Assembly: GCF_017304615.1 (NCBI RefSeq)
Contig: NZ_JAFKLZ010000001.1
Location: 1,116,001-1,180,000, forward strand
DNA: 64,000 bases
Direction: 5' to 3'
Source of the DNA: Sphingomonas sp.
GTDB taxonomy: Bacteria; Pseudomonadota; Alphaproteobacteria; Sphingomonadales; Sphingomonadaceae
This document shows, piece after piece, positions 42,478-46,485 of the stretch (position 1 is its first letter; each line of letters opens with the position of its first letter). The notes under the pieces are model-generated. The model saw only the letters and a list, made by a program, of their open reading frames with translations, was not told the origin of the DNA and made no database searches. The position numbers were made by a program, and so were the translations under genes.

Positions 42478-43380
42478 ATGGCAAACCGCAGCAACGTCCC
42501 CGCGACGATTCCTGCTCTCGGCGGCGAGGCGAGCCTCAACCGCTATCTGGCCGAGATCAAGAAATTCCCCGTCCTGACGCCGGAGCAGGAATACATGCTC
42601 GCCAAACGTTTCGAGGAACATGGCGACACGGAAGCCGCGCATCAGCTCGTCACCAGCCACCTGCGCCTCGTCGCGAAGATCGCGATGGGCTATCGCGGTT
42701 ATGGCCTGCCCGTCTCGGAACTGATTTCCGAAGGCAATATCGGCCTGATGCAGGGCGTGAAGAAGTTCGAGGCCGATCGCGGCTTCCGCCTCTCGACCTA
42801 TGCGATGTGGTGGATCCGCGCGTCGATCCAGGAATTCATCCTGCGCTCGTGGAGCCTGGTGAAGATGGGCACGACCGCCGCGCAGAAGAAATTGTTCTTC
42901 AACCTGCGCCGGATGAAGTCGAAGCTCGACGCGTTCGACGACGGCGACCTGTCACAGGAGAATCTCGCCAAGATCGCCAAGGACCTCGGCGTGACCGAGG
43001 AAGAGGTGACCAGCATGAACCGCCGCATGGCGATGGGCGGCGACACGTCGCTCAACGTCTCGATGCGCGAGGATGGCGAAGGTCAGTGGCAGGATTGGTT
43101 GCAGGACGATTCGCCCTTGCAGGATCAGGTCGTCGCCGAGACGCAGGAGGCGGACGTCCGCCACAGCCTGCTGACCGAGGCGATGGAAGACCTCAACGAG
43201 CGTGAACGCCACATCCTGACGGAACGTCGCCTGACCGACGACCCCAAGACGCTCGAGGAGCTATCGCAGGTCTATGGCGTCAGCCGCGAGCGTGTCCGCC
43301 AGATCGAGGTGCGCGCGTTCGAGAAGCTGCAGAAGGTGATGATGCGGCTTGCAGGCGAAAAGCGCCTGATCGCGGCGTAA
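42478..43380 (+). CDS. rpoH: Heat-shock sigma factor RpoH (sigma-32)
   Basis: This 300-residue sigma-70-family factor directs RNA polymerase to heat-shock promoters. Region 2 is well conserved (HLRLVAKIAMGYRGYGLP, DLIGN-like SELISEGNIGLMQGVKKF and STYAMWWIRASIQEFIL). The RpoH-specific box is QKKLFFNLRR. Region 4 with its helix-turn-helix (TLEELSQVYGVSRERVRQIE) is at the C terminus. A clear AGGAAAGGGAG precedes the ATG. Upstream is a small stem (GTGCAGCGCAGCAC, about 42416-42429), and a repeat unit follows the gene. Confidence 0.96.
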   Translation: MANRSNVPATIPALGGEASLNRYLAEIKKFPVLTPEQEYMLAKRFEEHGDTEAAHQLVTSHLRLVAKIAMGYRGYGLPVSELISEGNIGLMQGVKKFEADRGFRLSTYAMWWIRASIQEFILRSWSLVKMGTTAAQKKLFFNLRRMKSKLDAFDDGDLSQENLAKIAKDLGVTEEEVTSMNRRMAMGGDTSLNVSMREDGEGQWQDWLQDDSPLQDQVVAETQEADVRHSLLTEAMEDLNERERHILTERRLTDDPKTLEELSQVYGVSRERVRQIEVRAFEKLQKVMMRLAGEKRLIAA

Positions 43381-43392
43381 GCCTCCTTTATC

Positions 43393-43472
43393 CGTCACCC
43401 CGGCCTTGAGCCGGGGTCCTGCTTTCTCAACCGGAAGAAGAAGCGGGATGCCGGATCAAGTCCGGCATGACG
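43393..43472. repeat. Intergenic two-hairpin repeat, copy 1
   Basis: The unit consists of an outer hairpin around CCCCGGCC..GCCGGGG and a second hairpin ATGCCGGA..TCCGGCAT, flanked by CGTCA and TGACG. Two further copies are at 46067 and 56540. It follows rpoH. Such REP-like units are common between genes in sphingomonads. Confidence 0.85.
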
Positions 43473-43548
43473 AACGGGGTTTGCACCTCCTGGTTTACAC
43501 GCGCCCTGCGGCTCCCTAGCCTCCCCGCTCAACCATCGGGGACCGATC

Positions 43549-44040
43549 ATGTGGCGTTACGTCAAGATACCCAAGGCCATCGCGCTGCTGGCGTTCCTGC
43601 TGCCGTGGATGACGGTGTCGTGTTCGAACACCAAGGTAGCGGAGGCGAACGGCTGGGAACTGGTGCTGGGCCGCATCCGCCCCGTGATGCAGGCCGCGAG
43701 CGACGCGCCCGCCCATGCCGATAAACTCAACATTTACCTCGCCGCCGCCGTCGCGTTGATCGTCGTCGGGCTAATCTTTTCGCTGATGCGCAAGCGTCTC
43801 GCGCCGGTGGTGGTCGCGACGTCGCTCGGCGCGCTCGCGCTGATCTGGGCGGGCGCTCAGCAATATACGCCTCAACGCCTCGCCGACGCCGCGAAGCGTG
43901 GCGGTGAAGCGGGCATGGACGACATCGCCACATCGGTGATCCGCATCGATTGGCAGATCGGCTATTGGGTCGCGCTCGGCGCGCTCCTGGTTGCCGCCCT
44001 GCTGGCGTTCCTCGCGATCCGTGATCCCGACACGCGCTAA
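43549..44040 (+). CDS. Hypothetical membrane protein
   Basis: This 163-residue protein has three probable membrane helices: residues about 9-24, 65-84 and 90-105, plus a fourth near the C terminus (YWVALGALLVAALLAFLAI). I do not recognise a family. A short Cys-containing MTVSCS segment after the first helix resembles, but does not match well, a lipobox. It ends three bases before the fused oxidase-transglycosylase gene, so it may be cotranscribed with it. Confidence 0.75.
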   Translation: MWRYVKIPKAIALLAFLLPWMTVSCSNTKVAEANGWELVLGRIRPVMQAASDAPAHADKLNIYLAAAVALIVVGLIFSLMRKRLAPVVVATSLGALALIWAGAQQYTPQRLADAAKRGGEAGMDDIATSVIRIDWQIGYWVALGALLVAALLAFLAIRDPDTR

Positions 44041-44043
44041 CGG

Positions 44044-46050
44044 ATGAAACACGACGTCGTCGTCATCGGCGGGGGCGCGGCCGGGATCGCCGCCGCCCGG
44101 CGTCTGCACGACGCGCGCGCCGACGTCCTGCTGGTCGAGGCGAGCGGACGGCTCGGTGGGCGGGCGCATACCGTTCGGGTGCGCGGCGAAGTGCTCGACC
44201 TCGGCTGTGCGTGGCTGCATTCGGCCGATCGCAATCCATGGACCCGGATCGCATTGGCGGAAGGGTTCCAGATCGACCGCACGCCGGCGGGCTGGCGCAC
44301 GCAATGGAACGATCTGGGCTTTTCCAGGGAGGAACGCGCGGCGTTCGAAGCGGCCTACGCCCAATGGCACGAACGCGCGGAACGCTTCGTCCACGGCCCA
44401 GACCGCCCGCTCAGCGACTTCATCCCCGCCGCCTCGCCCTGGCGTCCGCTGATCGATGCGATTTCGGGCTATGCCAACGGCGCGAATTTGCGGGACGTCT
44501 CCCTCCACGACTGGGCGGCGTACGAAAATGCTGCGGGCGACGACAATTGGCGGCTGCGCGAGGGATATGGCACGCTCATTTCGGCGTACGGGAAGCGGCT
44601 GCCCGTCAAGCTCGACGCGCCCGTCTCGCTGATCGATCATCGCGGTGCCGTCATCCGTCTCATGACGCCCAGCGGCATCATCGAAGCGGATCGCGTGATC
44701 GTCGCGGTGCCGACGCCGATCATCGCCGATGGCGACCTTCGTTTCGACCCGCCGCTCGAGGACAAGCGCCAGGCCGCCGCCGCGCTCCCGCTCGGGCTGG
44801 CCGACAAGATCTTCCTTGGCATTAAGGGCGGTGACTATCCGCAGAACGCGCACCTGATCGGCAACCCGCGCAGCGCCAATACCGCGAGCTATCAGGTCGG
44901 TTGGCTCGGCCAGCCAGTGATCGAAGCTTTTTTCGGCGGCGATTGTGCCGAGGCGCTGGAACGGATCGACGACCGCGCCGCCGCCGATTTCGCGATCGGA
45001 GAATTAGCGGGACTGCTCGGCAACGACTGGCGGATGCGGCTACAGCCTCTCGCCCGTACCCGGTGGCGCGCGGAGAAATTCATTCGCGGGAGCTATTCGC
45101 ACGCGCGCGTGGGCCAGGCCGGGCAGCGCAATATCCTGGCTTCGGCGCACGACGACCGCTTGTTCTTTGCCGGCGAGGCATGCCACCCGAACGATTTCTC
45201 GACCGCGCACGGCGCTTACGAGACCGGGATCACCGCCGCCGAAGAGGTGCTTGCGGCGGGGCGCCGTCCGCGCGTAGTGGCGGCCATGCCGCTCGCCGCG
45301 GTCCCGACCCTCGCCACGACCGAACCTGCCGACGACGCCATGCCTGCAAGACGCACCAGCCCCCGCCGTTCTTGGCCGCGCCGCATCTTTGGATGGGCCT
45401 GGAAATCCGTGCTGGGCTTCGTGGTGCTCAGTGTCGTCTGGGTCGGACTCTACCGTTTCGTCAACCCGCCGATCACCTTCACGATGCTGGCGGACGGCGT
45501 GTCGGGGAACGGCATCGTCAAGCAGTGGATGTCGCTCGATCAGATGGATCCGCGGATGGCCCGCGCCGCGATCGCGGGCGAGGATTCGCGCTTCTGCCTG
45601 CACAACGGCTTCGATCTTCGCGCGATCGAGCAGGCCTATAATCGCAACCAGAAAGGCGGCCGCATCCGCGGCGGCTCGACCATCAGCCAGCAGACCGCGA
45701 AGAATGTCTTCCTGATCCAGGGCGGCGGCTATGTCCGCAAGGCGTTCGAGGCGTATTTCACCTTCCTGATCGAACATCTGTGGGGGAAGCGGCGGATCAT
45801 GGAGGTGTATCTCAACGTCGCGGAGACCGGGATCGGCACCTACGGCGCCAATGCCGGGTCGATCCGCTATTTCGGACACGACGCGTCGAAACTGACGGCG
45901 ATCGAGGCGGGGCGGATCGCCGCGGTGTTGCCGCTACCGAAGAAGCGCGACGCAGTGGACCCGACGGGCTTCGTGCGGCGACACGGCAACGCGATCGCGC
46001 GCTATGTGGACGTGGTGCGCGGCAGTGGGCTGGATAGCTGTTTGAAATAG
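44044..46050 (+). CDS. Fusion of FAD amine oxidase and monofunctional peptidoglycan glycosyltransferase (MtgA)
   Basis: This 668-residue ORF joins two families without a stop. Residues 1 to about 412 are a flavin amine oxidase: FAD motif VVVIGGGAAGIAAARRL at the start, GRLGGRAHT, and the C-terminal FAD segment FFAGEACHPNDFSTAHGAYETG. Residues about 433-668 equal a full-length MtgA: Arg-rich start, one TM helix (about 448-471), catalytic Glu in AGEDSRFCLHNGFD near 513, and GGSTISQQTAKN. An internal ATG at 45340 could start MtgA alone (236 residues). As one chain, the oxidase would be cytoplasmic and the GT51 domain periplasmic. The oxidase substrate is unknown. Confidence 0.88.
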   Translation: MKHDVVVIGGGAAGIAAARRLHDARADVLLVEASGRLGGRAHTVRVRGEVLDLGCAWLHSADRNPWTRIALAEGFQIDRTPAGWRTQWNDLGFSREERAAFEAAYAQWHERAERFVHGPDRPLSDFIPAASPWRPLIDAISGYANGANLRDVSLHDWAAYENAAGDDNWRLREGYGTLISAYGKRLPVKLDAPVSLIDHRGAVIRLMTPSGIIEADRVIVAVPTPIIADGDLRFDPPLEDKRQAAAALPLGLADKIFLGIKGGDYPQNAHLIGNPRSANTASYQVGWLGQPVIEAFFGGDCAEALERIDDRAAADFAIGELAGLLGNDWRMRLQPLARTRWRAEKFIRGSYSHARVGQAGQRNILASAHDDRLFFAGEACHPNDFSTAHGAYETGITAAEEVLAAGRRPRVVAAMPLAAVPTLATTEPADDAMPARRTSPRRSWPRRIFGWAWKSVLGFVVLSVVWVGLYRFVNPPITFTMLADGVSGNGIVKQWMSLDQMDPRMARAAIAGEDSRFCLHNGFDLRAIEQAYNRNQKGGRIRGGSTISQQTAKNVFLIQGGGYVRKAFEAYFTFLIEHLWGKRRIMEVYLNVAETGIGTYGANAGSIRYFGHDASKLTAIEAGRIAAVLPLPKKRDAVDPTGFVRRHGNAIARYVDVVRGSGLDSCLK

Positions 46051-46066
46051 CGTTGCGGTGCTCCCT

Positions 46067-46146
46067 CGTCACCCCGGCCTCGAGCCGGGGTCCCGCTTGA
46101 TCGACGCAGAAAAGAAGTGGGATGCCGGATCAAGTCCGGCATGACG
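46067..46146. repeat. Intergenic two-hairpin repeat, copy 2
   Basis: This copy has the same length and layout as the unit at 43393, with GC-rich hairpin CCCCGGCC..GCCGGGG and hairpin ATGCCGGA..TCCGGCAT between CGTCA and TGACG. It lies between the convergent fusion gene and ybaB and may also act as a terminator. Confidence 0.85.
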
Positions 46147-46161
46147 ACGTAAAACTACTCG

Positions 46162-46485
46162 TCAGAAGGGCAGCTTGAACCCCGGCGGCAGCGGCATGCC
46201 CTGCGTCATCTTCGACATCTCGGCATTCGACGCGGCATCGGCCTTCGCCCGCGCATCGTTGAACGCGGCGACGATCAAATCCTCCAGCATCTGCTTGTCC
46301 GCCGGCACGATGAGCGAATCGTCGATCGAGATGGCGATGATCCGACCCTTGGCCGACGCCTTCACCTTGACGAGGCCACCACCCGACGCACCTTCGACCT
46401 CGATCTGGTCGAGCCCGTCCTGCGCCTTGGCCAGTTCGGCCTGGACGTTCTGCGCCATCGCCATGATGTCTTCGAGACTCTTCAT
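46162..46485 (-). CDS. YbaB/EbfC nucleoid-associated protein
   Basis: This 107-residue protein matches the YbaB/EbfC DNA-binding family, a small nucleoid-associated dimer with a coiled helical N terminus (MKSLEDIMAMAQNVQAEL) and a central beta sheet containing VEGASGGGLVKVKASAKG. The ATG at 46485 overlaps the dnaX stop (ATGA), giving translational coupling, a common arrangement with dnaX. The recR gene often found next is absent here. Confidence 0.94.
   Translation of the reverse strand: MKSLEDIMAMAQNVQAELAKAQDGLDQIEVEGASGGGLVKVKASAKGRIIAISIDDSLIVPADKQMLEDLIVAAFNDARAKADAASNAEMSKMTQGMPLPPGFKLPF

Follow-up and report, generated by a model that had tools for sequence, protein, structure and literature searches.

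An in-frame fusion of a flavin amine oxidase with the glycosyltransferase MtgA in one Sphingomonas clade, and a putative mtgA promoter at its junction

Peptidoglycan synthases have been reviewed previously (PMC4632607). Among known proteins the gene described here has counterparts of two kinds. Like MtgA (TIGR02070, family GT51), its product has the whole glycosyltransferase domain, a basic N-terminal stretch, one helix, and GT51 motifs that are invariant in the ten genomes carrying it; unlike MtgA, it has about 430 predicted cytoplasmic residues with a flavin oxidase in place of a short tail. The oxidase domain (hereafter OX) is placed by sequence and fold among the oxidases of polyamines, monoamines and histone lysines, with 19-26% identity to LSD1/LSD2, spermine oxidase, and the bacterial monoamine and cyclohexylamine oxidases. 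Unlike those flavin amine oxidases, it is joined to a membrane helix and a glycosyltransferase. In other Sphingomonas the same two genes stand in the same order after rpoH, but the first ends in a stop codon and two separate proteins result. We found no paper on an amine oxidase joined to MtgA or to a transglycosylase in a search of the open-access literature that reached few of the subscription papers.

For the short elements at the junction of the two domains, the relevant described system is that of Zymomonas mobilis, which belongs to the same order as the Sphingomonas studied here. In the published study (PMC7566282), the sigma-A consensus is given as TTGNNN, a spacer mostly of 17, TANNNN and a discriminator mostly of 6, and leaderless transcripts make up 119 of 2,675 TSS-gene pairs. 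The fused genes resemble those promoters in having TTG...TA and a start codon that coincides with or adjoins the position where a transcript would be expected to begin; they differ in that the pair lies within a coding frame and has spacings of 18 and 5. No paper on transcription start sites or leaderless transcripts of Sphingomonas was found in the open literature.

The analysed window is a stretch of 64,000 nucleotides of Sphingomonas DNA, and all features given below lie on its plus strand. As the first-pass annotation had stated, positions 44044..46050 hold one open frame of 668 codons, which runs from ATG at 44044 to TAG at 46048-46050 with no internal stop; the same single frame with OX, linker, membrane helix and MtgA is seen in 10/10 members of the clade. 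That annotation had also read the frame as a complete FAD amine oxidase followed by a complete MtgA, and both domains were recovered. Pfam Amino_oxidase (PF01593) matches residues 13-403 (44080..45252) with an E-value of 3.4e-50, Pfam Transgly (PF00912) matches residues 493-647 (45520..45984) with an E-value of 9.7e-39, and the NCBIfam equivalog model of MtgA, TIGR02070, scores 212.9 bits over residues 452-658, above its cut-off of 182.65. OX has the FAD-binding motif and matches the flavin amine oxidase fold, the structure matches spanning residues 2-407, and the fold of the MtgA part is assigned from sequence and a predicted model. Lys255 (44806-44808) aligns with an LSD2 lysine, is kept in all ten fused genes, and may be the catalytic, flavin-facing lysine of OX. 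The GT51 part aligns in sequence with solved GT51 structures, and in the alignment of the ten fused genes the motifs AGED (with Glu513), RGGSTISQQTAKN and GKRRIMEVYLN are all kept; we take the glutamates of these motifs to have a catalytic-type role. The chain stops 21 residues past the Pfam glycosyltransferase match, and the transpeptidase domain of class A penicillin-binding proteins is absent among the 10 Pfam families listed. With an Amino_oxidase domain in the same chain, the protein is not the "monofunctional" enzyme that MtgA denotes; it is an MtgA domain within a fusion. The motifs of both domains are retained in all ten genes, and the fusion of OX and MtgA in one frame is confirmed as real.

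Between the two domains lie a linker (residues 408-441, 45265..45366), predicted to be disordered with block means of pLDDT of 37-41 at residues 411-440, and a membrane helix (residues 445-470, 45376..45453). The basic stretch and single hydrophobic helix that had been ascribed to the MtgA part as its own N-terminus are both found ahead of the MtgA domain. Around the most hydrophobic 19 residues there are 7 lysines or arginines in the preceding 25 residues versus 1 in the following 25, which predicts an N-in orientation. The annotation was right that in a single chain the oxidase and the glycosyltransferase would face opposite sides of the membrane.

The fusion was sought within the genus, the family and the order. 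The search of 295 Sphingomonas genomes with the OX domain gave ten genomes with an OX at least 78% identical to that of the window, the remaining matches listed being at most 65% identical, and in all ten the fusion is a single open frame encoding 666-672 aa. The group includes S. mali NBRC 15500, S. pruni NBRC 15498 and a one-contig assembly, G146. In each of the ten the fused gene is the sole MtgA above the TIGR02070 cut-off (one genome being 85% complete). A junction search of 397 genomes of the family gave, among its best 30 loci, 2 fused (G000 and G132), 1 split and 27 with a lone mtgA; in a full-length search of 99 genomes of the order, G000 and G132 were the only genomes matched along the whole chain. 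Seven other fused genes, compared over their full length, are 77-89% identical to the window gene. As all ten genomes of the clade are fused and the genes have diverged to this degree, the loss of the stop codon is old, and the recent loss that the annotation had offered as one of its alternatives is rejected.

In FastTree phylogenies, the fused genes form one side of a branch with local SH-like support of 100 for OX, 99 for MtgA and 99 for rpoH. The closest relatives of the clade in the rpoH and MtgA trees are split (G139, G031, G590, G053, G554 and others); the OX tree differs in that split G664 is placed beside the fused genes with support 80. Because the fused genes form one group in all three trees and all ten genomes are fused, it is most likely that the fusion arose once and has persisted.

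We examined 114 loci. The gene is fused in 10 of them, OX and mtgA are split neighbours on one strand in 80, and OX has no adjacent mtgA in 24. Nine of these 24 were drawn from a group of 47-51% identity that does not adjoin rpoH. The remaining 105 loci constitute the rpoH-linked set, of which 15 have no adjacent mtgA (4 of the 15 were examined to about 1.5 kb beyond the match), and OX and mtgA adjoin on one strand in the other 90, fused loci included. The rpoH-type sigma factor gene, found at 42478..43380 in the window by its Pfam sigma-70 regions, lies upstream of OX on the same strand in 104 of the 105 loci; in the other, the contig ends and no rpoH is seen. That the two families are normally separate proteins holds in the relatives examined, among them the 80 split pairs, whose gaps range up to 921 nt. 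Homologues that are always two genes with a stop here, which the annotation had named as a finding against the fusion, are not what we see, as one clade is fused and the rest are split.

The gap is exactly 9 nt, and in frame, in 42 of the 80 split pairs, where the mtgA start was assigned to the in-frame ATG that comes first downstream of a point 60 nt upstream of the OX stop; this rule certainly misplaces a few of the 80 starts. In G070, for instance, OX ends as ...GCA TAA GGA GCG GCG ATG, with the stop at codon 21 counted from the start of AYETG and the mtgA ATG at codon 25. The window gene reads GTA GTG GCG GCC ATG at those codon places, and Met415 (45286..45288) stands where the mtgA start codon stands in G070 and others of the 9-nt group. 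Codon 415 is ATG in 8/10 fused genes, ATA in G648 and CCG in G144. The residues that follow Met415 are similar to the cytoplasmic MtgA tail of split sisters, as in ATTEPADDAMPARR of the window and ATTEPVPDMPRRR of G579, and the linker is also like the tail of G554. Given the shared codon position and the similarity of the tails, the linker is probably the old cytoplasmic tail of MtgA plus four codons that were once the stop and intergenic bases. The split relatives closest in the rpoH tree (G053, G554, G139, G031 and G590) are without the 9-nt arrangement, which is a point against this derivation.

A second candidate start of free MtgA is Met433 (45340..45342), which is invariant in 10/10 fused genes and has no Shine-Dalgarno-like sequence upstream of it in any of the ten. 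The first-pass annotation had pointed to this ATG as a possible source of free MtgA. An internal start is indeed possible, but Met433 is doubtful as the original start of mtgA, since both position and promoter spacing point to 45286. The Met-Pro at 45340-45348 is invariant in the fused clade and is also seen inside the MtgA tail of split sisters G579, G580, G085 and G043, whose chosen start lies further upstream.

A TTG 35 nt and a TA 11 nt ahead of codon 415 are present in 10/10 fused genes. In the window they belong to a putative -35 element TTGCGG (45251..45256), starting within codon 403, and a putative -10 element TAGTGG (45275..45280), starting within codon 411; the spacer of 18 and the discriminator of 5 are each one off the modal 17 and 6. 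Across the fused genes the pair at that spacing lies ahead of 112 of 19,024 positions and of 8 of 258 ATG triplets; all 8 of these triplets are codon 415, one from each genome in which that codon is ATG. The codons on which the pair lies are rare, as judged from 40 long ORFs of the window picked by length and not from annotated genes. Codon 403 is CTT in all ten (10% of Leu codons) and is the rarest of the 35 codon-invariant 4/6-fold columns. Codon 411 is either GTA (5% of Val codons) or ATA (8% of Ile codons) in all ten, GTA in the window, and its column is the sole one in the alignment with NTA in every fused gene. A promoter scan of 43400-46200 with the E. coli consensus found none; that scan demands a T which the published Zymomonas consensus lacks. 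A sigma-A-like pair at the 3' end of OX, on rare codons in all ten genomes, is a new observation. If the putative promoter is used, a start at Met415 would be near-leaderless.

The TAG at 45275 is offset from the OX frame by one base; it occupies the place of the OX stop in the split genes with a 9-nt gap. In that group, TTG is 35 or 36 nt ahead of the mtgA ATG in 37/42 and TA at -12 is part of the OX stop codon in 42/42. The distance from TTG to ATG in the fused genes equals that of the commonest split form, whereas TA lies one base closer to the ATG and is no longer read as a stop in OX. The OX stop of the 9-nt group is TAA or TAG in 42/42 and never TGA (0/42), whereas TGA is used in 22/38 other split pairs and in 9/15 loci of OX without adjacent mtgA, counts that come from related genomes and are not independent. 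Similarly, TTG within codons 11-16 of the OX end is found in 10/10 fused, 37/41 split with a 9-nt gap and 15/37 other split genes, compared to 2/14 OX without adjacent mtgA and 1/7 distant OX as a natural control; 5 of the 114 loci, lacking an AYETG-type anchor, were dropped from this count. The complete TTG/TA pair is present in only 6/38 split pairs with other gaps. For mtgA genes not adjoining OX, the pair is seen in 10/40 versus 293 of 45,589 background positions (0.64%); this test applied one rule to all, used the 40 of 43 loci with an ATG start, and replaced a biased set of 21 hand-picked starts. A Shine-Dalgarno-like sequence precedes mtgA in 33/80 split pairs, and TAAGGAG in the 9-nt group may be a stop with a Shine-Dalgarno sequence instead of a -10 element. 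Many of the lone mtgA genes (loci L072-L111) have a GCTAA-like sequence shortly upstream of the ATG, which suggests near-leaderless mtgA transcripts in sphingomonads. TA at -16 to -9 was seen in 20/40 of them versus 11% in the background.

Pooled estimates of pN/pS were 0.24 over OX and 0.21 over the glycosyltransferase, against 0.53 over the linker (0.61 ahead of Met433), values that are rough given the many synonymous differences (pooled pS 0.41-0.49 by region). The linker is the least constrained stretch of the fused gene. Since none of the ten genes has a stop between its two domains, translating OX must yield the OX-MtgA fusion, and it follows that whenever OX is made a bitopic chain would be made, with a cytoplasmic OX, about 34 disordered residues, a helix predicted to be N-in and a periplasmic glycosyltransferase. 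Most likely, both the OX-MtgA fusion and free MtgA are produced.

The explanation that we favour, and consider probable though well short of settled, is that the OX-mtgA pair fused once, that the internal mtgA promoter was kept and that two products are made. A conserved pair of OX followed by mtgA downstream of rpoH would have become one gene in the common ancestor of the fused clade, which comprises at least ten species. We infer that the ancestral mtgA had its own sigma-A promoter, located in the 3' end of the OX gene so that its -10 element included the OX stop codon, and that a one-base shift of TA would have moved the stop out of the OX frame while retaining the promoter. Transcripts from upstream would then give the OX-MtgA fusion, and the internal promoter would give free MtgA whose first residue is Met433 or lies at or close to Met415. 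Met415 is lost in 2/10 genomes, and therefore free MtgA there would need Met433. The simplest consequence of the fusion would be that a soluble enzyme of the polyamine/monoamine-oxidase type is anchored to the inner membrane, with MtgA continuing to work in the periplasm. The fusion would thereby give a cell-wall polymerase a flavin oxidase as its cytoplasmic part. A single-origin fusion with unfused relatives still extant makes before and after comparable in culturable species. It also suggests a route by which neighbours may fuse without losing the separate expression of the second gene, if a promoter lying at the end of the upstream gene is retained after the stop codon of that gene has gone.

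The TTG/TA pair in the fused genes could also be a relic of the old mtgA promoter, the fusion being the only product and MtgA solely tethered. The missing Shine-Dalgarno-like sequence before Met433, the loss of Met415 in two genomes, and spacings that are each one off the modal values fit this reading. We nevertheless consider it unlikely, because the rare codons CTT and GTA/ATA are kept in 10/10 despite the pooled pS given above and because TTG is almost missing where mtgA is not adjacent (2/14). A chain that is made and then cut in its disordered linker would leave oxidase and MtgA to act separately as in the relatives, and the fusion would be nearly neutral; disorder and low constraint of residues 408-441 agree with cleavage, but the total length has stayed constant at 666-672 aa across ten species, and we regard this as quite improbable. 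A missed stop codon at the junction or an assembly error is practically negligible as an explanation, as the same open frame is found in 10 genomes including the one-contig G146 and two culture-collection strains.

Other readings give the fusion a regulatory role. OX may sense or change something at the inner membrane, such as polyamines, and tune MtgA across it. Both domains are intact and constrained, and the two genes are one-strand neighbours in 90/105 rpoH-linked loci, which speaks in its favour; on the other hand, the long disordered linker offers no obvious signal path and mtgA is not beside OX in 15/105 loci. We find such tuning improbable, and a regulatory link between OX and MtgA across the membrane is possible but unsupported. 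It is a speculative extension of the favoured two-product explanation, and one that we think distinctly doubtful, that the sole MtgA of these cells exists in two forms, one free, from a promoter whose -10 element formerly took in the OX stop, and one tethered to cytoplasmic OX, which as an amine- or redox-responsive domain across the membrane would position or tune the synthesis of cell-wall glycan.

Two minor observations concern the region just upstream of OX. A 163-aa protein with hydrophobic stretches (43549..44040), whose stop codon is 3 nt ahead of the OX start, matched no Pfam or NCBIfam family, and among the stretches examined at the 114 loci a match to it was seen only in G000, G146, G028, G012, G648, G144 and split G650. 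In G132 and G040 (L243 and L242), TA elements are seen shortly ahead of the OX ATG, which may point to a near-leaderless promoter for OX itself in some members of the clade.
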